A stretch of DNA of 64,000 nucleotides, taken from Desulfobacula toluolica Tol2 (GTDB lineage Bacteria > Desulfobacterota > Desulfobacteria > Desulfobacterales > Desulfobacteraceae). The position numbers and the translations under genes were made by a program. Positions 16,411 through 64,000 of this stretch are shown here, piece by piece. How positions within the stretch are numbered: position 1 is the first letter of the stretch; every line of letters starts with the position of its first letter. Below the pieces are notes generated by a model. It saw only the letters and a list, made by a program, of their open reading frames with translations, was not told the DNA's origin and did not search any database. Location of the stretch: the NCBI RefSeq assembly GCF_000307105.1, contig NC_018645.1, positions 1,004,578 through 1,068,577 of the forward strand. Reading direction: 5' to 3'.

Positions 16411-16482
16411 TGGGTTTTGTTATCTGTTAAAATAAAACATGAATTTTAGAAGAACTGGTGTAAACAATCAAGGGAAAAAATA

Positions 16483-17616
16483 TTGAATTACAAGTTTATT
16501 GAATCTGAATCAGAATTGAACCATGTCTGTGATGATCTGTTAAAGGAAAAAATAATTGCTGTTGATCTGGAAGCGGATTCAATGCATTGTTTTAAGGAGA
16601 AAATCTGCCTGATCCAGATTGCCTCTGCAAAAGAAGCGTTTTTAGTTGATCCTTTTGAAATCAAGAAGATTTCATCTTTTTTAAACGTGCTTGAAAATAA
16701 TGATGTTATGAAAGTGTTTCACGGGTCTGATTTTGATATCAGAAGTCTTGACAGGGATTATCATGTGCAGGTGAATAATCTTTTTGACACTGAGATCGCC
16801 TGCCGGTTTTTAGGCATCAAAGAGCGGGGGCTTGCAGCCCTGTTAAAAAGAAATTTTGACGTTGATGCAGACAAGAAATTTCAAAAGGTGGACTGGGCAC
16901 AACGTCCGCTAAAGCAGGCAATGATTGAATATTCCGTGGGGGACGTGGCATACCTGGTAGAACTGCAGGATATTATTCATGGACGGCTTAAGGAAAAAAA
17001 ACGTCTTGCCTGGGCAAAAGAAGAATTTGAAATACAGGCACAGGTCCGGTATGAAAATAATCATACATTTCCCTTGTTTAAAAAATTTAAGGGTGCCGGT
17101 AAAATGGATAACAGGAGCCTTGCGGTTCTGGAAAATCTGCTGCAGATGAGGCTTTCCATTGCCCAAAAAAAAGATCAGCCCTTGTTTAAAGTTATTTCAA
17201 ATCCTTCGTTAATGACCATGGCCTGCGAGAAACCCTTGACAATCGATCGTATCCTGAAGATACGGGCATTGAGCAGAAAACAGGCGGACATGTATGGAAA
17301 CCTTTGTGTGGAGGCTGTGGTTAAGGCCATGGAATTGGAGCATAGGGCGTTGCCCTCATATCCGAAAACCAGAAGACCCAAAAAGGATGATTTGATACAG
17401 GAACGGATCAAACGGCTGAAAAAGATGAGAGAAAAATTAAGCGGTTCCTTGGGAATTGAACCTGGGTTTTTATTGAACAATGCAGTGATTTCATGTGTTG
17501 CGGCTGAAAATCCTGCAACACCTGAAGAGCTTTTAAAAATTGAACAGGTCCGGCAGTGGCAGGTGGAAGCCATGGGCCGGGATATTATTTCACTGCTTGG
17601 ATATTGCAGGGCATGA
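16483..17616 (+). CDS. rnd: ribonuclease D
   Basis: 377 residues beginning at a TTG codon, chosen because AAGGGA lies 8 bases upstream and the fold starts at once. The DEDDy 3'-5' exonuclease domain shows IAVDLEADSM (Asp and Glu), FHGSDFDIRSL (Asp) and YSVGDVAYL (Tyr and Asp). An HRDC domain follows (about residues 210-290). It trims 3' ends of tRNA precursors and other structured RNAs. dapF begins 12 bases after its stop, so the two are co-transcribed. Confidence 0.93.
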   Translation: MNYKFIESESELNHVCDDLLKEKIIAVDLEADSMHCFKEKICLIQIASAKEAFLVDPFEIKKISSFLNVLENNDVMKVFHGSDFDIRSLDRDYHVQVNNLFDTEIACRFLGIKERGLAALLKRNFDVDADKKFQKVDWAQRPLKQAMIEYSVGDVAYLVELQDIIHGRLKEKKRLAWAKEEFEIQAQVRYENNHTFPLFKKFKGAGKMDNRSLAVLENLLQMRLSIAQKKDQPLFKVISNPSLMTMACEKPLTIDRILKIRALSRKQADMYGNLCVEAVVKAMELEHRALPSYPKTRRPKKDDLIQERIKRLKKMREKLSGSLGIEPGFLLNNAVISCVAAENPATPEELLKIEQVRQWQVEAMGRDIISLLGYCRA

Positions 17617-17628
17617 CGGACGGAAAAT

Positions 17629-18474
17629 ATGGAAATTGAATTTATTAAAATGCAGGGCCTTGGCAATGATTTTATTCTTCTGGATAACAGGAAAGGTGAC
17701 ATCAGGCACCCTTATCCAGACCTGTCAAAAAAACTTTGTTCAAGGCATTTCGGCATTGGAGCCGATGGTATGATCCTTATTCTTAAATCCGTGGCCCAAG
17801 ATATTAAATTCAGGATATATAATTCTGACGGATCACAGGCCCAGATGTGCGGCAACGGCATGCGTTGTTTTGCTAAAATCCTGTATGAGAACAAGATATT
17901 GCCACAAAAGAAAATGCGTGTGGATACAAAGGCAGGCACCGTTATTCCCGAGGTGATCACAGATGAGGCGGGTCGGGTAAGTTCGGTAAGGGTTGATATG
18001 GGCGAACCCGTGCTTTTTTGCCGGGATATTCCGTTTAAAAGCCCCAATGAGATTGCCGTAGAAGAGTTTTTGACCGTAGGGGACAAGGAGTGTGGCATTA
18101 TCCCTGTGTCCATGGGAAACCCCCATGCCGTTATGTTTGTTGATGATCTGGAAAGAGTGGATGTCAAAAAAATCGGCCGGTCAATTGAGACTCATGAAAG
18201 GTTTCCTGAAAAGACAAATGTTGAGTTTGTTGAAGTGGTAAATGATAAGGAATTAAAAATGAAGGTATGGGAAAGGGGGGCGGGGATGACTCTGGCCTGC
18301 GGTACAGGTGCCTGTGCCGCTCTGGTTGCCGCTAACCTGACGGGCAGGACGTCAAAAAGCGCTGTTGTTCATCTTGATGGAGGAGACCTTGACATTCAAT
18401 GGAACAAAGAGACCAACCATGTCTTTAAGACCGGTCCTGCCACAAAGGTATTTGAGGGGCGGATAAGAATTTGA
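17629..18474 (+). CDS. dapF: diaminopimelate epimerase
   Basis: 281 residues, full length for the family. Both active-site cysteines are present, in NSDGSQAQMCGNGMRCFAK (near residue 74) and MTLACGTGACAAL (near 224). It converts LL- to meso-diaminopimelate for peptidoglycan and lysine. GACGGA precedes the ATG. It follows rnd closely and converges with the PocR-domain gene across a nested inverted repeat. Confidence 0.96.
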   Translation: MEIEFIKMQGLGNDFILLDNRKGDIRHPYPDLSKKLCSRHFGIGADGMILILKSVAQDIKFRIYNSDGSQAQMCGNGMRCFAKILYENKILPQKKMRVDTKAGTVIPEVITDEAGRVSSVRVDMGEPVLFCRDIPFKSPNEIAVEEFLTVGDKECGIIPVSMGNPHAVMFVDDLERVDVKKIGRSIETHERFPEKTNVEFVEVVNDKELKMKVWERGAGMTLACGTGACAALVAANLTGRTSKSAVVHLDGGDLDIQWNKETNHVFKTGPATKVFEGRIRI

Positions 18475-19292: not shown

Positions 19293-20501
19293 TTACATTA
19301 TCAGAGACTCAGATGCCAGATAAGCCACTGTATGGATTTTTATGCCCAGATTATAATGAGCGGACAATTCTTCTATCTGCCGGTAGCATGACAGACATGC
19401 CGTGGCAAGATGAGGCAGACTGGCTGCCTTTATCTGGTCGGCTTTTGGTTTTCCTGTGATCATTCTTTTTTTTGTGCTGTTACCGTCCTGCAACATGCCT
19501 CCTCCTCCTCCGCAGCAGATTGCGTCTTCCCTGTTGGGGGTAAGTTCCACAACTCCCTGGCAGACCATGGAAAGCAATTGTCTCGGGGCGTCATATCCTC
19601 CTGATTTTCTGGAAATATTGCAGGGATCATGGTATGCGATTTTATAGGGATGTACGCCGGGGTCAAATTTAAGAATTCCTTTTCGGGCATACTGCACAAC
19701 CAGTTCGGGCATGCTGACAACTTCAAATTTTGGTTTTCTTCCGATAATGTCTTCAAGGAGGTATTTTAATACATGGTAACCATGGCCGCATTCTCCAAGC
19801 ACAAGGGTTTCAATGCCGAGTTCTTCAGCCGGTTCAACCACCATCAGTGCCATTTTTTTTGTGATGTCATCCTTGCCCACAAAATATCCCCAGTTGGTGA
19901 CGTCTGAATGGCGGGCAGACATGGTCCATGGTTCTTTTATGGCATAAAAAAGTTTTGCCATGGCCGTCAATTGAAGCAGGTTGACGCCCAGTTCTCTTGG
20001 GTTGGGAAGGTAGAGAAGCTTTGCACCTTTTTGATCATGGGGGATTTGAGCTTTAGGATCATTTATTTCATCAGCAAATTCTTCGCTGACCCATTCAACG
20101 GTTTCTACAAATTCTTCTTTGCTCAGACCGTTGACATCGCCCACTTCCATTCGGTTTTTAATTCCTTGTTTAAGATCTTCAGGGATTTTCTCATCTGCAA
20201 TGGCAAGGCTTCTGGCTTTTGCTACAATTTTGTCCATGCAGATCCCCATGGGGCAAACCTGGGTGCAGCGGTTGCAGATCAGGCAGTCCCAGAGCATATG
20301 GCTGTTTACAAGCTGCTCGTCAAGCCCAAGGGCGGCCATGCGGATGATCTGGCGGGGCAGGGGGCCGCCTTCCCCTTCAAACCAGGTACACCTGGAGGTA
20401 CATGCCCCGCAGGTGAGGCATTCAAGACTATTGTGACCCGGAGACAATTGTTTGAGCAGGGTATACAGAACAGAATCTTTATTTATCGTTGCATGATCCA
20501 T
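19293..20501 (-). CDS. HdrD-like (HdrC-HdrB fused) iron-sulfur protein, cysteine form
   Basis: 402 residues. The N-terminal HdrC-like part has two [4Fe-4S] motifs: CLTCGACTSRC (near 35) and CLICNRCTQVCPMG (near 75). In the C-terminal HdrB-like part the first CCG motif is reduced to LGECGHGYH, while the second is complete: DPCNISRKSGG, ICCGGGGGM and CLSCYRQ. Such proteins carry electrons to disulfide-type or other acceptors in heterodisulfide-reductase complexes. The upstream gene is an HdrA-MvhD fusion, so together they form a soluble electron-transfer unit. The protein at 39764 is a close paralogue in which the LGEC cysteine is replaced by selenocysteine. AAAAAGGAA precedes the ATG. Confidence 0.87.
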   Translation of the reverse strand: MDHATINKDSVLYTLLKQLSPGHNSLECLTCGACTSRCTWFEGEGGPLPRQIIRMAALGLDEQLVNSHMLWDCLICNRCTQVCPMGICMDKIVAKARSLAIADEKIPEDLKQGIKNRMEVGDVNGLSKEEFVETVEWVSEEFADEINDPKAQIPHDQKGAKLLYLPNPRELGVNLLQLTAMAKLFYAIKEPWTMSARHSDVTNWGYFVGKDDITKKMALMVVEPAEELGIETLVLGECGHGYHVLKYLLEDIIGRKPKFEVVSMPELVVQYARKGILKFDPGVHPYKIAYHDPCNISRKSGGYDAPRQLLSMVCQGVVELTPNREDAICCGGGGGMLQDGNSTKKRMITGKPKADQIKAASLPHLATACLSCYRQIEELSAHYNLGIKIHTVAYLASESLIM

Positions 20502-38233: not shown

Positions 38234-38824
38234 ATGGAAGACACGTTGACTGTATTCACTGCAAGCAAATACTGCAATGTTTCGTCTAAGACCATCATCA
38301 ACTGGGTGGAAGCCGGTCATATTAAGGCGTATCGCACTGTTGGCGGACATCGCAGGATCAAAAAATCTGATCTTGAAGCGTTTATGCAAAGCCAGGGAAT
38401 TCCCATTCCTGAGGCGAAAGAAGGCGGCTCCGGAAAAAAGATTCTTGTTGTGGATGACGATATGATCATTGTAGAGTCAATCGTACAGGCATTGGAAGAA
38501 GATGAATTTGACTATGAAGTTATTTCAGCCTCGGACGGTTTTGAAGCCGGGCTTCAAGTCAATCATTTTCATCCGGATCTGTTGATTCTGGACATTATGA
38601 TGCCGGATATCAAAGGCTATGATGTCTGTAAAAAGATCAAGGCAAACGAAAAAACAAAACATACCAAGATTATCGTGTTATCAGCATACCTGGATGACGA
38701 TAAATTTGCCCGTATGAAAGAGTATGGTGCTGATGTTTGTTTTTCAAAGCCGTTGCCCCTGCCCAAGCTCAAAAAAGAAGTGGCTAAATTGCTTGGATTA
38801 ACAGCTGAAGGAGGCAGATCATGA
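38234..38824 (+). CDS. excisionase-type HTH plus receiver-domain regulator
   Basis: 196 residues with reversed order for a response regulator. The N-terminus (1-55) is a MerR/excisionase-type winged helix (LTVFTASKYCNVSSKTIINW, YRTVGGHRRIKKSDLEAF). A receiver domain follows from about 70, with ILVVDDD, acceptor aspartate in LLILDIMMPDIKGYD, and FSKPLPLPKL. The first gene of the met/hdr block, it overlaps the MetF-like gene by ATGA, so it is likely to control this block. The HTH may need phosphorylation of the receiver for DNA binding. Confidence 0.85.
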   Translation: MEDTLTVFTASKYCNVSSKTIINWVEAGHIKAYRTVGGHRRIKKSDLEAFMQSQGIPIPEAKEGGSGKKILVVDDDMIIVESIVQALEEDEFDYEVISASDGFEAGLQVNHFHPDLLILDIMMPDIKGYDVCKKIKANEKTKHTKIIVLSAYLDDDKFARMKEYGADVCFSKPLPLPKLKKEVAKLLGLTAEGGRS

Positions 38825-39699
38825 ATTTAAAAGAATCATTAGAAAAAAAGAGATTTGTCGTGACATCCGAAGTACAGGTTCCCCTCGGTGATGAAGAATC
38901 CGAGGGGCTGGTTGAAAGCCTTGGACGGGTAAAAGGCCGCGTGGACGGTTTGTCAATCGCTGAAATAGAACTTGAAGGTGTTGTAAGCGACACCATTAAA
39001 ACCTGCGGTCTGTTAAAAGAGAACAACCTGAATGCAATTTATCAAACCACCACAAGAGATAAAAACCGGTTTCAGTTGCAAAAGGATTTGACACTGGCCC
39101 ATGAAACAGGTGTTGACAATCTTCTGGTGTTTACCGAAGACTACAGGATTTCCGGGGATACACTTCAGGAATCCATGTTCTTTCATGTTGATTCCGGCAA
39201 ACTGGGATCAGTCCTGAATCACTTGAAACAAGGGGTGACCATTGAAGGAAAAGAGCTTGAGAGTAAAGTTGAATTTTCCCTTGGCTCCGGGATTGAAACC
39301 CCCTGGGGAAAAAGCATGCCAAAACGCGGCATGGAGGAAATGGAAGATATGATGAATGTGGGGGCGGGATATTTTTTGACAACGCCTATTTTTGATATTG
39401 ATCAGTTTGCAAAGTTCATGAAGCAGGTTGAGCCTTTTAGAGTTCCGGTTATTGCCGAAGTCATGATTCTAAGAACAGCAGGAATGGGAAAATTTTTGAA
39501 TCGCCATTTTAAATCCGGACTTGTGCCTGAATGGGTTATCCAAAAGCTGATGAATGCAACAAACAAAAAAAAGGCAAGTATGGAGCTTTTCGCCGACACG
39601 GTTAAAAGTTTGAAAGATATCTGCCAGGGGGTTCATATTGTAACTCTTGGGGGGGTTGATAACCTGGTGCAGTATTTGAATGCTGCCAAATTAAGATAA
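38821..39699 (+). CDS. diverged MetF-like (methylenetetrahydrofolate reductase family) protein
   Basis: 292 residues with the MTHFR TIM-barrel pattern: FVVTSEVQVPLG at the first strand (MetF: FAFTGECGPPKG), IYQTTTRDKNRF (MetF: MVCRDRNR), VDNLLVFTEDY in place of MLCLSGDH, and GAGYFLTTPIFDIDQFAKFM matching GADFIQTQCIFNMEKF. The family's folate-contact region is changed. It may be a second reductase form, or a subunit paired with the MetF encoded at 46969. It is translationally coupled to the HTH-receiver gene and followed by the HdrD-like selenoprotein gene. Confidence 0.8.
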   Translation: MNLKESLEKKRFVVTSEVQVPLGDEESEGLVESLGRVKGRVDGLSIAEIELEGVVSDTIKTCGLLKENNLNAIYQTTTRDKNRFQLQKDLTLAHETGVDNLLVFTEDYRISGDTLQESMFFHVDSGKLGSVLNHLKQGVTIEGKELESKVEFSLGSGIETPWGKSMPKRGMEEMEDMMNVGAGYFLTTPIFDIDQFAKFMKQVEPFRVPVIAEVMILRTAGMGKFLNRHFKSGLVPEWVIQKLMNATNKKKASMELFADTVKSLKDICQGVHIVTLGGVDNLVQYLNAAKLR

Positions 39700-39763: not shown

Positions 39764-41050
39764 ATGGCAGAGGCAATTAAGATTGATGAACTGGACATTG
39801 AACTTAAAGATGCCGTCCTGGAAAAGGTGCCGGACGCAAATTTTGATCTTTGTCTGACGTGCGGAACCTGTACCGGGGGGTGTGCAGCCTCGGAACTGTT
39901 TGATATGGACCCCAGAAAACTTATTCGGATGCTGAATCTGGGCATGGACGATGAAATTCTCAAAAGCGACTGGAAATGGGTGTGCAGCATGTGCGCACGA
40001 TGCGTGGCAGCCTGTCCCATGAACATCAATATTCCGGCCCTGGTTTATAATATTCGCAATATGGTTCCACGGGAAAAACGGCCCAAGGGGATTCTCGGGT
40101 CTTGTGACCAGCATATCAAGACAGGCAGTGCCATGGGCGCGAAAAAGGATGATTTTGAATTCACTGTGCTGGATGTAGCTGATGAGATAAGAGAAGACCA
40201 TCCCGGGTTTGAGGATCTTCAGGTGTCTGTGGACCGGGAAGGCGCGGCAATGGTTTTGAACCAGAACTCAAGAGAACCTGTGACCGAACCCGAGGAAATG
40301 GGGCCGTTATGGAAAATTCTTCACACTGTGGGTGCTGACTGGACCTATCCTTCGGTGATGTGGGCCGGAGAAAATTATTGCATGTTCATGGCTGATAATG
40401 AGGGATGGAAATATATTATCGAGGAATTTGTTCATCATGTGGACAATAACTTGAAAAGCCCCCTTGTGGTCAATACAGAGTGAGGTCACTCATATTTTGC
40501 GATCCTGGAAGGATTGCGAAGATTTAACATTCCCCATAAGTTTAAACTTGTTACGATTATTGAACTCTACGCACAGTGGATCAGGGAAGGCAAACTCAAG
40601 GTAAATTCAGACTGGAATAAAGAGATCGGCGCTAAATTTACAGTGCAGGACCCCTGCAATATCGGACGAAAAACCGGGTCAAATAAAATTGTGGATGATT
40701 TGCGGTTTGTCATTAAAACCGTTGTGGGTGAGCAAAATTTTATTGATACGGTTCCCAACCGGGAGAACAACTATTGCTGCGGCGGCGGCGGTGGTGCTTT
40801 GCAGGCTGGATTTCCCGATCAGAGAAGGGCCTACGGCAGAACCAAATTCAATCAGCTTGCGGCAACCGGTGCAACTTATGTGATCGCACCCTGTCACAAT
40901 TGTCACGGCCAGATTGAAGATATTGGCGAGCAATTTGGCGGCAATTATCATGTGGTTCATTTGTGGACTATCATTTGCCTTGCCATGGGGGTGCTTGCCG
41001 ATACGGAACGAACCTATCTTGGGCCGGATCTGGCCGGCGTGGGACTATAA
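39764..41050 (+). CDS. HdrD-like (HdrC-HdrB fused) iron-sulfur selenoprotein
   Basis: 428 residues if the in-frame TGA at 40481-40483 (codon 240) is read as selenocysteine. Conventional reading gives two pieces in the same frame, 39764-40483 and 40514-41050. The N-terminal part has CLTCGTCTGGC and CSMCARCVAACPMN [4Fe-4S] motifs. The Sec lies in VVNTE-U-GHSYF, exactly where the paralogue at 19293 has LVLGE-C-GHGYH. The C-terminal CCG motif is complete: DPCNIGRKTG, NYCCGGGGGAL, APCHNCHGQIED. An 11-pair hairpin starts 11 bases after the TGA. It is the HdrB/HdrC-type electron carrier of the cluster. Sec here should lower the redox potential or change acceptor chemistry. Confidence 0.88.
40495..40521 (+). 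promoter_or_regulatory. bacterial SECIS-like hairpin (HdrD-like gene)
   Basis: TTTTGCGATCC (40495-40505) pairs with GGATTGCGAAG (40511-40521) through Watson-Crick and G-U pairs around a TGGAA loop. It starts 11 bases after the TGA, the spacing of the E. coli fdhF SECIS, and would recruit SelB. Confidence 0.78.
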
Positions 41051-41065
41051 AAAGGAGGAATCCAA

Positions 41066-44000
41066 ATGGCCGAAAAAGGTAGAGGGTCGGTAATGGTTGT
41101 GGGTGCCGGCATTGCAGGTATCCAGGCGTCACTGGATCTGGCGGATTCGGGATATTTTGTATACCTTGCGGATAAAAACACAGCCATCGGCGGAACAATG
41201 GCGCAACTGGATAAAACCTTTCCCACCAATGACTGCTCCATGTGCATTATTTCGCCAAAACTGGTTGAAGCAGGCAGACACCTGAACATAAAATTGTTAA
41301 CCATGACCGAGATTGATGGAGTTACCGGCGTTGAAGGGGATTTTACAATAACATTAAAGGAAAAACCGCGATTTATTGACCTGGAAAAATGCACGGCCTG
41401 CGGGGAATGTTCCGCTGTCTGCCCGGTGGAGCTTCCCAGCCGGTTTGACGAGGAGCTGGGAAACCGCAAGGCCGCGTTTAAACTGTATCCCCAGGCCATG
41501 CCGTCGGGTTATGCCATTGAGAAAAAAGACAAGGCCCCCTGTCGTCTGACATGTCCTGCCGGGCTGAATGTTCAAGGATATGTCCAGATGGTCAAGCAGG
41601 GTAAGTACAGAGAATCATTGGAAATCATCATGGAACAGCTTCCCCTGCCCGGAGTGCTGGGTCGTATCTGTCCTCATGAATGCGAGGATGCCTGCCGAAG
41701 GTGCCAGGTGGATGAGCCAGTGGCCATCCGGGATTTGAAACGGCTTGCAGCAGACAGTTTTGATCCAAGGGATGTGAAGATTGAGTGTGCGCTCAGGATC
41801 GGCAAAAAAGTGGCTGTCATCGGTTCCGGCCCGGCTGGTTTGTCAGCAGGATATCATTTGGCCAGAAAAGGGGTGGATGTAACCATATTTGAAGCATTGC
41901 CCGAGGCCGGAGGTATGCTGAGGGTGGGCATTCCCGACCATCGCCTGCCCCGGGAGGTACTGGACAAAGATATTGAAGTGGTCACCAACCTGGGTGTTGA
42001 CATTAAATTTAATGTCTGTCTTGGCAGGGATTTTACCGTGGACAGCCTTATGGCGGATGGTTTTGATGCGGTTTTCCTCGGTCTGGGCGCCCATAAGGGA
42101 ATTGCCCTGGGCATTCCAGGAGAAGGATTTGACGGGGTGAGGCAGGGCGTGGATTTTCTGCGGGAACTCAACCTGTCCGGGAAAACCAGGGTGGGCAAGC
42201 AAGTGGCGATTGTCGGCGGCGGCAATGTGGCCATTGACGTGGCCAGGTCTGCGGTCAGGCTGGGGGCAAAAGAGGTCACCATCCTCTATCGCAGAACCAG
42301 AAAAGAGATGCCGGCCTGGGAAGAGGAGATCCGGGCTGCAGAAGAGGAAGGCGTTGATATCGTCTATCTTGCCGCCCCTCAGAAGCTCATGGAAGAAAAC
42401 GGGAAACTGGCTGCTGTGCGGGTGATCAAAATGGAACTGGGCGAACCTGATGCCTCGGGCAGAAGACGTCCCATCCCTGTGCCGGGCAGTGAATACGATA
42501 TTGAAATTGATCAGCTTATTTGCGCAATCGGTCAGCGCCCGGATCTTACCGCCCTGAAAGATATGGCAGGTGTGAACATCACCAAATGGGACACCACCCG
42601 GGTGAATCCGTTGACCCTTGCCACGGACCGGGAAGGGGTGTTTGCGGGCGGGGATCTTCAGACAGGTCCCAGTGTCGCCATTGCAGCCGTGGCAGCCGGT
42701 ATGGAGGCGGCTGAATCCATTTTCCGGTATCTTCAAGGATTGGATATGGAAGAGGGAAGACAACTGCCAGTGGTTGAAAATCCAAAGTTCCAGCCGATTG
42801 CAGAAGATATGAAAACTGAAAACCGTTATAAAATGCCTGAACTTGCCCTGGAAGACCGGGCCGGTAATTTTAATGAGGTGGAGCTGGGATTAGGTGAGGC
42901 AGAAGGCAGAAAAGAGGCGGCAAGATGCCTGAACTGCGGATATTGTTCCGAATGCATGCAGTGCGTGGATGCCTGCCTTGCCAATGCAGTGGATCATTCC
43001 ATGACCGGCAGAACCCACACCATCAACGTGGGGGCGGTTATTCTTTCTCCCGGGTTTACCCCTTTTGAACCAACGCAGATGACCTCCTATTGTTACGGCC
43101 ACAGCCCCAATGTCATGACCAGCCTGGAGTTTGAAAGAATTTTGTCGGCTTCCGGGCCATATGGCGGTCACCTGGTCCGGCCCTCAGACAATGAGGAACC
43201 CAGAAAGATCGCCTGGCTTCAGTGCGTGGGATCAAGGGATATCAATAAAGGTGATCATTCATATTGTTCGGGAGTCTGCTGCATGTATGCCAACAAACAG
43301 GCGGTGATTGCCAAGGAACACAGTGGCAAAAATCTTGATACTGCAATTTTTTTCATGGATATGAGAACCCATGGAAAAGAGTTTGACAAGTATAATATGA
43401 GAGCCCAGGATGACAGCGGGGTCCGGTTTATTCGGTCAAGAATTCATTCCGTATTTCCCGAACCCGGAGATTTCTACAGGATTGTGTACTCTTCTGAGGC
43501 CGGTCACATGGTTGAGGAAATTTTTGACATGGTGGTGCTGTCCATAGGGCTTTCACCCAATAAGGACGCCCAAAGATTGGCGGATAAAATGGGCATTGAA
43601 CTGAATCATCACGGGTTTGCCCGTACTGATAACCTGTCGCCTGTGTGTACCAGCAAAAAAGGGATCTATGTGTGCGGCACTTTCCAGGAGCCCAAGGATA
43701 TTCCCGCTTGTGTTATGGAAGCTTCGGCGGCTGCGGCCAGTGCATCCATGGCCTTACAGGATGCCAGGTGGAGCCAGACCAGAACCAAAGAACTGCCGCC
43801 GGAGAGCGATTTTTCAGGGCAGGCTCCCCGCATCGGTGTGTTTGTGTGTAACTGCGGCATCAATATCGGCGGTATTGCCGATGTTCCGGCAGTCAGGGAT
43901 TATGCGGCAACATTGCCCCATGTCGTCCATGTGGAGGACAATTTGTTTACCTGTTCCCAGGATTCCCAGGATCACATGAAACAGGTGATTCAAGAGCATG

Positions 44001-45499
44001 ATCTTAACCGGGTGGTGGTGGCATCCTGTTCACCCCGAACCCATGAACCATTGTTCCAGGAGACCATAAGGGATGCAGGCCTGAACAAATATCTGTTTGA
44101 GATGGCTAATATTCGGGATCAAAATACCTGGGTTCACATGAACGACCCGGATAAAGCCACTCAAAAAGCCAAGGACCTGGTTCGAATGGCCGTGGCCAAA
44201 GCCGCATTTGTAGAACCCTTGCACCAGGTGGCCCTGGAGATTAAAAAATCTTTGCTTGTGGTGGGCGGCGGCGTGGCTGGTATGGAAGCAGCTCTTTGTG
44301 CAGCAGGCCAGGGGGTTGACGTTCATCTGGTGGAAAAAACAGCAGTTCTGGGGGGTGTTGCCAGGAATCTGAATGCCACCTGGAAAGGGGAAAATATCCC
44401 TGATTATCTTGAAAGCCTGATTGCCAAAACCCATGCAAGTGAAGCTATTCATCTGTATCTGGATTCTCAAATAGAATCCTTTACAGGCTCCATGGGCAAT
44501 TTTATCACCATCGTTAAAAACAATGAAACCGGACAGCAAAGCAGCATTGAACATGGGGCCGCCGTTCTTGCCACCGGCGGAAAAGAATACAAGCCCCATG
44601 AATATCTTTACGGCGAACACCCCGATGTCCTGACTCATCTGGATATGGATGCGGCATTGCGGGAAAAGGACTCTCGAATTGAAAAGGCAAAGTCTGTTGT
44701 GTTTATCCAGTGTGTAGGCTCCAGAAATGAGCAGAACCCTTATTGCAGCAAGGTTTGCTGCACCCATAGCCTGAAAAGTGCCATTGCCTTAAAAGAAATG
44801 GACAGGCGAAAAAAAGTTTATGTTATTTACCGGGATCTTCGCTCTTATGGTTTCAGAGAAGACCTGTACCAGACAGCACGGGGCCTGGGCATTTTGTTTA
44901 TCCGGTATGATCTGGAAAAAATGCCGGTCTTGAGGGAAAATGCCAATAAACTGCTGGAATTGTCCGTGATTGATCATATCCTGCAGATGCCGGTGACCAT
45001 TCATCCCGACCTGGTGGTTCTGGCTTCGGGGGTTGTGCCGGGGGACAACAAGAATTTGTTTGAAAAATTAAAAGTGCCGACAAACGCTGAAGGGTTCCTG
45101 GTGGAGGCCCATGCCAAGCTGCGGCCCGTGGATTTCGCATCGGACGGGTTGTTTGTGGCGGGCCTTGCCCATTATCCCAAACCTGTTGAAGAGAGTATTG
45201 CCCAGGCAAGGGCGGCGGTTGCCAGGGCCATGACCATTCTTTCCAGGGACTCGTTGATGGTGGGCGGTGTGGTGGCCAGGGTGACTCCTGAAAAATGTGC
45301 GGTCTGCCTGACCTGTGTGAGGACCTGTCCCTATGGTATTCCTTATATCCATGAGGACGGATATGCTCAGATTGATGCTTCCGAGTGTCATGGATGCGGG
45401 GCTTGTGTGGCGGAGTGTCCGGGCAAGGCAATCCGGCTGGATCATTTTACGGATCAGCAGATAATGGCAAAGACGGATGCGCTTTTTGAAGATGCATAA
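41066..45499 (+). CDS. hdrA: giant HdrA-type flavoprotein with embedded GltD-like NAD(P)H module
   Basis: 1477 residues. In order: HdrA-type FAD domain (VVGAGIAGIQAS, near 12); ferredoxin motif CTACGECSAVCP (near 112); an inserted GltD/NfnB-like module (about 160-580) with CRLTCPAGLNVQGYV, FAD site VIGSGPAGLSAGYHLA and NAD(P)H site VAIVGGGNVAIDVA; cysteine cluster CLNCGYCSECMQCVDAC (near 622); HdrA signature QCVGSRDINKGDHSYCSGVCC; a second HdrA copy (about 920-1390) with VFVCNCGINIGG, VVGGGVAGMEAAL and QCVGSRNEQNPYCSKVCC; and two C-terminal [4Fe-4S] motifs. Three flavins and at least five clusters are predicted. It suits electron bifurcation between NAD(P)H, ferredoxin and the Hdr/Met partners. 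GGAGG precedes the ATG. Confidence 0.9.
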   Translation: MAEKGRGSVMVVGAGIAGIQASLDLADSGYFVYLADKNTAIGGTMAQLDKTFPTNDCSMCIISPKLVEAGRHLNIKLLTMTEIDGVTGVEGDFTITLKEKPRFIDLEKCTACGECSAVCPVELPSRFDEELGNRKAAFKLYPQAMPSGYAIEKKDKAPCRLTCPAGLNVQGYVQMVKQGKYRESLEIIMEQLPLPGVLGRICPHECEDACRRCQVDEPVAIRDLKRLAADSFDPRDVKIECALRIGKKVAVIGSGPAGLSAGYHLARKGVDVTIFEALPEAGGMLRVGIPDHRLPREVLDKDIEVVTNLGVDIKFNVCLGRDFTVDSLMADGFDAVFLGLGAHKGIALGIPGEGFDGVRQGVDFLRELNLSGKTRVGKQVAIVGGGNVAIDVARSAVRLGAKEVTILYRRTRKEMPAWEEEIRAAEEEGVDIVYLAAPQKLMEENGKLAAVRVIKMELGEPDASGRRRPIPVPGSEYDIEIDQLICAIGQRPDLTALKDMAGVNITKWDTTRVNPLTLATDREGVFAGGDLQTGPSVAIAAVAAGMEAAESIFRYLQGLDMEEGRQLPVVENPKFQPIAEDMKTENRYKMPELALEDRAGNFNEVELGLGEAEGRKEAARCLNCGYCSECMQCVDACLANAVDHSMTGRTHTINVGAVILSPGFTPFEPTQMTSYCYGHSPNVMTSLEFERILSASGPYGGHLVRPSDNEEPRKIAWLQCVGSRDINKGDHSYCSGVCCMYANKQAVIAKEHSGKNLDTAIFFMDMRTHGKEFDKYNMRAQDDSGVRFIRSRIHSVFPEPGDFYRIVYSSEAGHMVEEIFDMVVLSIGLSPNKDAQRLADKMGIELNHHGFARTDNLSPVCTSKKGIYVCGTFQEPKDIPACVMEASAAAASASMALQDARWSQTRTKELPPESDFSGQAPRIGVFVCNCGINIGGIADVPAVRDYAATLPHVVHVEDNLFTCSQDSQDHMKQVIQEHDLNRVVVASCSPRTHEPLFQETIRDAGLNKYLFEMANIRDQNTWVHMNDPDKATQKAKDLVRMAVAKAAFVEPLHQVALEIKKSLLVVGGGVAGMEAALCAAGQGVDVHLVEKTAVLGGVARNLNATWKGENIPDYLESLIAKTHASEAIHLYLDSQIESFTGSMGNFITIVKNNETGQQSSIEHGAAVLATGGKEYKPHEYLYGEHPDVLTHLDMDAALREKDSRIEKAKSVVFIQCVGSRNEQNPYCSKVCCTHSLKSAIALKEMDRRKKVYVIYRDLRSYGFREDLYQTARGLGILFIRYDLEKMPVLRENANKLLELSVIDHILQMPVTIHPDLVVLASGVVPGDNKNLFEKLKVPTNAEGFLVEAHAKLRPVDFASDGLFVAGLAHYPKPVEESIAQARAAVARAMTILSRDSLMVGGVVARVTPEKCAVCLTCVRTCPYGIPYIHEDGYAQIDASECHGCGACVAECPGKAIRLDHFTDQQIMAKTDALFEDA

Positions 45500-45635: not shown

Positions 45636-46061
45636 ATGACCCGGGAATTTGAACCCAGGATAATCGCATTCTGCTGCCAGTATTGAGCTTATGCAGCCGG
45701 GGACCTGGCAGGTTCCATGAGACTGTCCTATCCAGCAGACGTTAAAATTATTCAGGTGCCCTGCACGGGACGGGTGGACATTCTTCACCTGCTGAATGCC
45801 ATTGAAGACGGAGCGGACGGGGTTTATGTGGCGGGATGCCTTGAAGGAGAGTGCCATTTTAAAGAGGGCAATTTTAAGGCCCGAAAAAAAGTGGAATATG
45901 TTCAACGGACATTGACGGAGCTTGGCATTGAGCCTGAACGGGTGCGGATGTACAATCTTTCGTCGGCCCAGGGTGCGAGATTTGCCGAGATTGCCAATGA
46001 GATGGTGGCCTGCATCAGGGAGTTGGGGCCAAGTCCGGTGAAAAAACACCATGCAGCGTGA
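45636..46061 (+). CDS. mvhD: MvhD/FrhD-type electron-transfer selenoprotein
   Basis: 141 residues, reading TGA at 45684-45686 (codon 17) as selenocysteine. GGAGG lies 6 bases before the ATG at 45636. The start MTREFEPRIIAFCCQY-U-AYAAGDLAG matches the family motif FCCxxCxYxxADLAG, with Sec at the third cysteine. Later marks VPCTGRVDILHLL, GVYVAGCLEGECHF and FAEIANEM are typical. A frame starting at 45717 would lose the cluster-binding motif and is rejected. MvhD holds a [2Fe-2S] cluster and passes electrons to HdrA; in acetogens it is part of the MetVF-Hdr complex. Sec-containing F420-hydrogenase delta/MvhD proteins are known from methanogens and deltaproteobacteria. Confidence 0.9.
45698..45719 (+). 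promoter_or_regulatory. bacterial SECIS-like hairpin (mvhD)
   Basis: GGGACCT (45700-45706) and AGGTTCC (45710-45716) pair around a GGC loop with one G-U, and outer bases extend the stem. It begins 11 bases after the TGA, as in the other selenoprotein gene of this block. Confidence 0.78.
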
Positions 46062-46155: not shown

Positions 46156-46833
46156 ATGATAGTAGCAGATCGAAAATCTCTTCCTGAGATATTGGCGATG
46201 GTTGAAAATGATAAAAAAATTCTCATCATCGGGTGCAAAGGGTGCGTTACTGTCTGTAATGTCGGGGGATTAAAGGAGGTTGAAATACTGGCCTCGGTAA
46301 TTAAAATCGCCAGAAAGAAAAATGGAAACGACATTGAAATTGATACTCAGGTTCTGGAAAGACAGTGCGACACCGAATATGTGGCCGGGATAAGCGATAC
46401 CGTAGGGGATTATGATGCGGTTGTATCTCTTGCCTGCGGCGTGGGGCCCCAGTTTTTATCTGAAATGTACAAAGACCAGACCTTTTATCCCGGGGTCAAC
46501 ACCACCTTTTTCGGCGGTGCCACCCAGCACGGGATCTGGGAGGAGAGGTGCGCGGGCTGCGGCACCTGTGTGATTCACGATTTCGGCGGGCTGTGCCCCA
46601 TATCAAGGTGTGCCAAAAGCCTTATGAACGGCCCCTGCGGCGGATCATCCAACGGGATTTGCGAGGTAAACAAAGACACGGTGTGTGTCTGGGATTTGAT
46701 TGTCCGCAAAAAAATGGAGGCTGGAAAACTCGAAGACCTGATGGGTCTCAAGGGGATAAAAAACTGGCGCACGGCACGGGATGGCGGACCGAGAAGAAGC
46801 ATACGCGAAGAATTGGTCAAGGGCAACATATAA
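46156..46833 (+). CDS. metV: MetV: iron-sulfur partner of methylenetetrahydrofolate reductase
   Basis: 225 residues. The N-terminal part has LIIGCKGCVTVCNVGGLKE, and a C-terminal cysteine region reads ERCAGCGTCVIHDFGG, CPISRCAKSLMNGPCGG and CEVNKDTVC, the MetV / MTHFR C-terminal zinc- and cluster-binding pattern. In Moorella-type acetogens MetV forms the core with MetF and links it to Hdr subunits. AGAGGTG precedes the ATG. metF follows after 135 bases. Confidence 0.9.
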   Translation: MIVADRKSLPEILAMVENDKKILIIGCKGCVTVCNVGGLKEVEILASVIKIARKKNGNDIEIDTQVLERQCDTEYVAGISDTVGDYDAVVSLACGVGPQFLSEMYKDQTFYPGVNTTFFGGATQHGIWEERCAGCGTCVIHDFGGLCPISRCAKSLMNGPCGGSSNGICEVNKDTVCVWDLIVRKKMEAGKLEDLMGLKGIKNWRTARDGGPRRSIREELVKGNI

Positions 46834-46968: not shown

Positions 46969-47937
46969 ATGAATGAGCTTAAGTCAGGCAGCGAATTTAA
47001 ACCAGGAAATGATCTTAAGTCGGGAAGTAATCTTGAAAAGGTTCTAAAGGCCGGTTATTTCGCATTCACAGGAGAGTGCGGCCCCCCCAAAGGTGCCAAT
47101 GTCCGGCATCTGAAAGAAAAATTTCAATATCTCAAAGGCAATGTGGATGCTGTGAATATGACCGATAACCAGACAGCAGTGGTCAGGATGTCTTCTCTTG
47201 CAGGGTCGGCTCTGTTGGTTGAAGAAGGGCTGGAACCCAATTTTCAGATGGTCTGCCGGGACCGCAACCGCCTGGCCATCATGAGCGATATTTTGGGTGC
47301 CTATGCCCTGGGTATTCGGAATATGCTGTGTCTTTCCGGGGATCACCAGACATTTGGCAACCATCCTGAAGCCAAAAATGTTCATGATATTGATTCCATG
47401 CAGCTTATCTCAGTAGTAAAAAAGATGAGGGATGAGGAAAAGTTCATTAACGGTGAGGAAATTGATGTTGCACCCCGGATGTTCATTGGTGCGGCATGCA
47501 ACCCTTTTGCCGACCCCTATGAATACCGGGTATACCGGCTGGCCAATAAAATAGAAGCCGGGGCTGATTTTATTCAGACCCAGTGTATCTTTAACATGGA
47601 AAAGTTCCGGGATTTCATGAAAAAGGCTGTGGACATGGGGCTTCATGAACGCTGCTATATTCTGGCCGGAGTTACCCCCATGAAAAATGCGGGTATGGCC
47701 AATTTCATGTCAAAATTCGTGCCTGGCATGGACATTCCCGATTCTCTGATCAAGCGCCTCAAGGGTGTGGACAAGCGTGACCAGGCAGAAGAGGGCATCA
47801 AGTTCGCCCTGGAACAGGTGGAAGAATTCAAACAGATGGAAGGGGTTTCAGGGGTACACATGATGGCCATTGAATGGGAACACAAGATGCCTGAAATCGC
47901 CGAACGGGCGGGGATGTTGCCCAGGCCTGCGGTGTAG
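46969..47937 (+). CDS. metF: methylenetetrahydrofolate reductase
   Basis: 322 residues. The MTHFR TIM barrel has FAFTGECGPPKGANV at strand 1, VNMTDNQTAVVRM, CRDRNRLAIMSDILGAYALG, MLCLSGDHQTFGNHP, GAACNPF, and DFIQTQCIFNMEKF. It interconverts methylene- and methyl-tetrahydrofolate using FMN/FAD and, with MetV and the Hdr/Mvh proteins, probably ferredoxin or NAD(P)H. In sulfate reducers that oxidise acetate it runs toward methylene-THF. The first 20 residues hold a small repeat (ELKSGS, DLKSGS) not seen in typical MetF. AAAGGAGAAG precedes the ATG. A terminator follows, so this is the last gene of the block. Confidence 0.92.
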   Translation: MNELKSGSEFKPGNDLKSGSNLEKVLKAGYFAFTGECGPPKGANVRHLKEKFQYLKGNVDAVNMTDNQTAVVRMSSLAGSALLVEEGLEPNFQMVCRDRNRLAIMSDILGAYALGIRNMLCLSGDHQTFGNHPEAKNVHDIDSMQLISVVKKMRDEEKFINGEEIDVAPRMFIGAACNPFADPYEYRVYRLANKIEAGADFIQTQCIFNMEKFRDFMKKAVDMGLHERCYILAGVTPMKNAGMANFMSKFVPGMDIPDSLIKRLKGVDKRDQAEEGIKFALEQVEEFKQMEGVSGVHMMAIEWEHKMPEIAERAGMLPRPAV

Positions 47938-63762: not shown

Positions 63763-63825
63763 ATCCCTTTTTTATCCAATAGATCCAATGGAAACCGGCA
63801 TTGCCGTACACGGTTTTCCTATGTT

Positions 63826-63975
63826 TTACCAGGCAGGTATTCTGACTTGCGGATCATCCTCATGCCGCGCCTTCCCATTATATCAACAGTGGCATATTGC
63901 AGCATTTGTCACCGATTACAGCGGCGGGCCCGTTTCCGAATTACACGAAATTCCCTATTAAGCCGATGGCACCAG
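63826..63975 (-). ncRNA. cobalamin riboswitch
   Basis: Reading the minus strand gives the consensus in order: GGTGCC, AATAGGGAA, a region with AATTCGGAAACGG, CCCGCCGCTGTAA, GCCACTG, GGGAAGG, GATGATCC, AGTCAGAATACCTGCC. GCCACTG and the paired CCTGCCTGG/GGTGCC ends match the family. It should bind adenosyl- or other cobalamins and, through the terminator at 63716-63762, reduce expression of the AraC-type regulator when cobalamin is plentiful. Confidence 0.93.
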
Positions 63976-64000
63976 ATAAAATTTACTTTGTGCTACAGAA

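Follow-up and report, generated by a model that had tools for sequence, protein, structure and literature searches.

The gene at positions 39764–41050 almost certainly encodes a single 428-residue selenoprotein, in which an in-frame TGA is read as selenocysteine (Sec) at residue 240. It lies in a window, i.e. the whole stretch of 64,000 nucleotides that was analyzed, covering positions 1004578–1068577 of a single-contig genome of 5,197,905 bases. Among named organisms, its nearest relatives in the searches are Desulfobacula, Desulfotignum, and Desulfospira. With good confidence, the gene and its surroundings are best explained by a selenoprotein whose Sec-240 would be placed at a non-cubane iron-sulfur cluster and that would form an arm of a MetFV–HdrA–MvhD complex.

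The original prediction described a continuous HdrC–HdrB-type protein split by an in-frame TGA. Indeed, the frame of 39764–41050 is interrupted solely by this TGA, and reading through it yields the 428 residues (Table 1). Pfam assigns the first half to dicluster ferredoxin families and the second half to one CCG domain. Together with the alignment and the EtfD profile, these matches describe an HdrD-like protein, in which an N-terminal HdrC-like dicluster part (C30, C33, C36, C40, C74, C77, C80, and C84) is joined to an HdrB-like part. The cysteines of the CCG domain (C298, C338, C339, C377, and C380) are the counterparts of the non-cubane cluster ligands of EtfD. The joined protein outscores either half on the TmcB, HmcF, and DsrK models, yet stays under every cut-off. 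Two cases in the window show a pair of stop-free segments, each 150 codons or longer, joined by a TGA; none arose in 50 shuffles that roughly preserved dinucleotides. Judged from their sequences, the members of the second pair (16447–18472) are two ordinary adjacent genes sharing a frame. The HdrD-like gene stands out from this background because the TGA, the hairpin behind it, and the coding character on both sides are conserved.

Table 1. Positions of the features in the window
Feature	Positions	Strand	Evidence
Distant Cys paralogue (ECGH)	19293–20501	−	sequence match and Pfam
Response-regulator protein with HTH of MerR type, conserved as first gene	38234–38824	+	Pfam and 15/15 long loci
Diverged methylenetetrahydrofolate-reductase (MTHFR)-like protein	38821–39699	+	Pfam MTHFR E 5e-18, conserved neighbor
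HdrD-like gene (HdrC–HdrB fusion, 428 aa with TGA translated as Sec)	39764–41050	+	frame, homologues, pN/pS
HdrC-like 2x[4Fe-4S] domain, residues 28–89	39845–40030	+	Pfam and alignment
Sec codon TGA, residue 240, motif TE-U-GH	40481–40483	+	frame, homologue column, alignment
Bacterial-type SECIS hairpin: stem 40496–40506 with 40510–40520, apical loop GGA 40507–40509	40496–40520	+	fold, covariation, model fit
CCG domain, residues 293–384	40640–40915	+	Pfam, alignment, EtfD profile alignment
HdrL-type HdrA, into which an NAD(P)H-dependent GltD-like module is inserted	41066–45499	+	profile matches, conserved neighbor
MvhD/FlpD, the second selenoprotein gene in the cluster, with in-frame TGA 45684–45686 (FCCQY-U-AY)	45636–46061	+	frame, Pfam, loci, hairpin
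MetV-like (methylene-THF reductase C-terminal family)	46156–46833	+	Pfam PF12225
MetF (methylenetetrahydrofolate reductase)	46969–47937	+	Pfam MTHFR E 1e-42

The codon for residue 240 is TGA in 107 of 151 covering tblastn matches, TGC in 41, TGT in two, and GCT in one; these matches include duplicates, as some contigs were fetched by two routes. The GCT row (L115_2990, a 25% identical paralogue) probably reflects an alignment offset and not a true non-Cys residue, because this protein has its own Cys (FSCPEGYH) seven residues further on. After removal of identical proteins, of matches covering fewer than 300 residues, and of the GCT row, 128 non-redundant homologues were left, 85 with Sec and 43 with Cys, and the TGA rows come from many assemblies. 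We aligned 42 of these proteins, chosen for spread: G241, the five C-terminal CCG cysteines, and the Sec or Cys at residue 240 are invariant, and H242 is kept in at least 90%. The expectation that homologues carry Cys at this column is thus borne out, with Sec or Cys in 42/42 aligned proteins and in 150/151 covering matches. The proposed match between NTE-U-GHSYF and LGE-C-GHGYH of the Cys paralogue in the window also holds, with one gap before the E. In one homologue (L129:1506-2822), PD-C-GGG replaces E-C-GH, so that the Cys is kept and the His that presumably caps the cluster is lost.

Selection on the protein was compared on the two sides of the TGA among 37 equal-length orthologues, which are related, so that their row counts are not independent. 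The mean pN/pS is 0.129 before the TGA and 0.115 after it, and downstream of the TGA all 37 orthologues show pN/pS below 0.25 with pN smaller than pS. Purifying selection is equal on both sides of the codon.

In a quick maximum-likelihood tree, rooted at the midpoint, Sec and Cys interchange at least five times, or four times when only well-supported branches are counted. The window protein falls into a 41-row all-Sec clade (of 128 rows) with eight Cys proteins as sister. A single gain of Sec followed by four reversions would be one reading among others; the five changes indicate that Cys does the job in the sister groups. Among the matches listed, the window's own genome holds two more TGA paralogues (at 2211983 and 4257167) and Cys paralogues at 3383749, at 2230190, and within the window (Table 1). 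Another genome carries a tandem pair of Sec HdrD-like genes (L112:1621-4715).

The RNA downstream of the codon folds into a hairpin that fits the published bacterial SECIS model and shows compensatory changes. It had been predicted to start 11 bases after the TGA; the hairpin is present, but the minimum-energy fold leaves 12 nt between TGA and stem, and 11 is reached only with an extra T·G wobble pair seen by eye. Over the first 45 nt after the codon, the mean fold z is −1.69 in the 85 Sec rows versus −0.35 in the 43 Cys rows (Mann-Whitney p = 2e-10, calculated on rows that are not independent). For covariation, 81 of the 85 Sec rows were aligned, with identical stretches dropped and the nine distant rows L120–L128 kept. 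Stem columns 16–26 pair with columns 30–40 in 86.1% of cells, versus at most 51.3% when the arms are slid, and the stem contains 66 doubly changed cells, against a shuffled mean of 29.6 and with none of 500 shuffles as high. Two of the five covariation measures do not exceed the shuffles in these 81 stretches, namely the number of pairs with a double change (six; 183/500 shuffles as high) and of further pair types (14; 241/500 as high). In 72 Sec rows, i.e. with the distant subfamily L120–L128 left out, pairs 22–34, 23–33, and 26–30 form in 94, 100, and 97%, whereas the Cys rows belonging to the same Sec-rich clade (21 of 22, all but L129) give 62, 67, and 24%. Of the bases involved, 30 and 33 fall on third positions of codons, and 34 usually opens a TTG or CTG leucine codon, so that the pairing is not readily explained by protein conservation.

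The bSECIS model requires a loop of 3–9 nt, a stem of 4–16 bp, a G within the first two loop bases, a spacing of 16–37 nt, and an MFE of at most −7.5 (PMC13188914). The window hairpin fits this model, with a spacing of 23 nt, a GGA loop, 14 counted pairs, and −13.5 kcal/mol. A loose form of the model is passed by 84/85 Sec rows and 18/43 Cys rows, and a strict form, which also demands the loop position and G[G/T] and was set after the Sec rows were seen, by 84/85 Sec versus 3/43 Cys rows. In the distant Sec subfamily L120–L128, which carries PE-U-GHAY and near forms, four of the nine members have the upper stem displaced by one base and a GGTC loop of four bases, and a fifth fits better when shifted; this is a natural change of register.

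The genome also provides the machinery for Sec insertion. Searches for selA, selB, selC, and selD, suggested as a check of the prediction, found all four above curated cut-offs, and selD itself carries a TGA. Two observations named beforehand as speaking against a selenoprotein, a non-Cys residue at this column in homologues and a lack of selB or selC, were looked for and neither was made. UGA codon 240 is very probably decoded by SelB and tRNA-Sec, steered by the hairpin 12 nt downstream.

An AlphaFold2 model of the protein (mean pLDDT 88.8, with the first 11 residues poor) matches EtfD best among PDB entries (TMq 0.71), followed by HdrB chains (TMq 0.44–0.46). In the profile alignment with EtfD (PDB code 9ojn), U240-G-H242-S243 falls on Cys581-Pro-His583-Cys584. 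According to the available text of the EtfD paper, the non-cubane cluster is held by Cys637, 672, 673, 709, 712, and His583, and Cys503, 538, 581, and 584 ligate a linear [3Fe-4S] cluster. The HdrD-like protein retains all six non-cubane ligands, five Cys and the His, whereas residue 240 is the only linear-cluster position with a conserved Cys-type residue. Because the non-cubane ligands are kept and those of the linear cluster are mostly lost, the most likely place for Sec-240 is next to the non-cubane cluster, where it would have no cluster of its own. No other Cys-type residue is conserved in the first CCG half, which is degenerate, and Sec-240 precedes by two residues H242, which corresponds to the His ligand of EtfD. 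The claim that Sec takes the place of a CCG-domain cysteine therefore needs qualification: the column is indeed a Sec/Cys column, but it is not one of the five ligands of the intact C-terminal CCG motif.

The HdrD-like gene is part of a conserved cluster in the order response regulator, MTHFR-like protein, HdrD-Sec, HdrA/GltD fusion, MvhD with TGA, MetV, and MetF. This order is found in 14 of 15 long loci, which we picked from those contigs of the orthologue clade that looked long enough, and hdrA and frhD/mvhD are neighbors of the HdrD-Sec gene in all 15. In the remaining locus (L175), no MetV or MetF match of at least 35% identity was found within the 14 kb fetched, where a diverged copy is possible, and MvhD has Cys in place of Sec. 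The TGA of the window's MvhD gene is followed by its own fitting SECIS-like hairpin. The product of the first gene (38234–38824, +) combines a receiver domain with a MerR-type HTH and may be the operon regulator, and that of the second (38821–39699) is a second, diverged MTHFR-like protein alongside MetF. No separate HdrB or HdrC was recognized by eye among ORFs of at least 90 aa between 38234 and 47937, and no membrane-partner family was found among the operon proteins scanned. Elsewhere in the window, a cobalamin riboswitch is located at 63815–63991 on the minus strand (116 bits).

Judged by this gene order, it appears quite likely that HdrD-Sec serves as the HdrBC-equivalent arm of a cytosolic, flavin-based (bi- or confurcating) MetFV–HdrA–MvhD complex in a reversible Wood-Ljungdahl methyl branch. 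Within the protein, as modeled on HdrB and EtfD, two ferredoxin clusters would feed one non-cubane [4Fe-4S] cluster on C298, C338, C339, C377, and C380. We somewhat favor an arrangement in which Sec-240 would face this cluster across a pseudo-twofold cleft as a redox-active selenol. The selenol could attack a disulfide or thiol substrate, or it could tune or ligate the cluster. The far-reaching version, in which Sec-240 would be an active-site selenol working directly with, or ligating, the non-cubane [4Fe-4S] cluster at the disulfide-handling center of a bifurcating methylene-THF reductase complex, is speculative and by itself rather unlikely.

Alternatively, the protein may be a genuine selenoprotein in which Sec-240 takes no part in substrate chemistry but is structural or tunes the potential (or is an occasional ligand), and which does no more than pass electrons between HdrA and MetFV. 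We consider this possible rather than probable. In EtfD, the closest solved fold, the same region serves electron transfer only and His583 makes the cluster non-catalytic, according to the available text of its paper. H242 is conserved in the HdrD-like protein too, and the operon reductase MetF could be the real acceptor. However, Sec is costly and occupies the redox-active position in most families, and residue 581 of EtfD is a ligand of a second cluster, whose remaining ligand positions lack a conserved Cys in the HdrD-like protein.

The readings that do without Sec have a negligible chance of being correct. Had an ordinary Cys gene suffered a nonsense mutation or decayed into a pseudogene, or been misread in sequencing, a single base change from TGC or TGT would be enough, and we would expect a plain gene caller to split the gene; however, the identical TGA recurs in 85/128 non-redundant homologues, with downstream coding and SECIS kept. 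Two products, a 239-aa N-terminal and a 178-aa C-terminal protein made by internal restart, could draw on a TTG start at 40514, but the TGA lies inside the first CCG half, the Cys-column homologues are single chains, and the hairpin would be purposeless and the silent-site pairing unexplained. Conservation rules out the pseudogene, sequencing-error, and two-gene readings.

The selenoprotein reading places the gene in a family that is already in print. The available text of Zhang and colleagues (PMC1794560) describes a Sec-containing Fe-S oxidoreductase (GlpC) family in Deltaproteobacteria, with operons containing hdrA, frhD, frhG, and frhA. In the accessible parts of two reviews, the 2022 one likewise lists a Sec Fe-S oxidoreductase-like (GlpC) family (PMC9312934), and the 2026 one gives the motif UGH and counts the family among selenoproteins with largely uncharacterized functions (PMC13188914). 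The published UGH corresponds to U240-G-H, and hdrA and frhD (MvhD) are co-operonic in both cases, whereas the published operons contain the hydrogenase genes frhG and frhA where we find an HdrA/GltD fusion, MetV, and MetF. We assign the protein to the GlpC family (COG0247/PTHR43551; listed record WP_174406253.1) by motif and gene neighbors. The genome paper of Desulfobacterium autotrophicum HRM2 names HdrD4 as a selenoprotein in its available part (PMC2702500); by that description, it too is a selenoprotein with HdrC and HdrB parts fused, from a sulfate reducer. For a marine deltaproteobacterium related to Desulfobacula, the available text of PMC8318568 reports Sec-containing Fe-S oxidoreductase and heterodisulfide reductase; that of PMC5109826 names other Sec genes, and that of PMC1088965 has no mention of a GlpC or Fe-S oxidoreductase selenoprotein. 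As the family was already in print, HdrD-Sec is less novel than the original prediction implied.

In contrast to the HdrD-like protein, which shares its five Cys and His ligands, EtfD from Mycobacterium smegmatis is membrane-bound, holds a second, linear [3Fe-4S] cluster, and has Cys for Sec. The best NCBIfam matches are DsrK, TmcB, and HmcF, with 115.5 of 400, 178.7 of 735, and 175.8 of 750 bits, far under the curated cut-offs, so that none of these identities was accepted; one TmcB (L103) and one HmcF (L152) carry ECGH, with Cys in place of the Sec. Nor was the protein classed as a true HdrD (CoB–CoM heterodisulfide reductase), which has two complete CCG motifs and two non-cubane clusters, since its first CCG motif is not complete and Pfam finds one CCG match. 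A MetFV–HdrABC–MvhD complex is known from Moorella thermoacetica, as the available text of PMC5861303 describes. MetF, MetV, HdrA, and MvhD are encoded together there as well as in the window and in 14/15 loci, whereas here a fused single-CCG Sec protein replaces HdrB and HdrC, and HdrA carries a GltD-like module.

The gene belongs to a kind already known, and its operon and site are now better defined; the conserved operon and the site of Sec-240 are what is added to the published record. Our analysis corrects the gene model where a gene caller would probably split 39764–41050, and it adds a widely conserved and well-supported Sec clade to a selenoprotein family listed with uncharacterized function. 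Through its conserved gene order, this GlpC-like family is linked to the Wood-Ljungdahl methyl branch as well as to electron bifurcation of the HdrA type. The EtfD alignment suggests a specific, testable position for the selenium, next to an unusual iron-sulfur cluster. If Sec-240 is indeed a selenol at the non-cubane cluster, this would represent new selenium-iron-sulfur chemistry in a complex with two selenoproteins.
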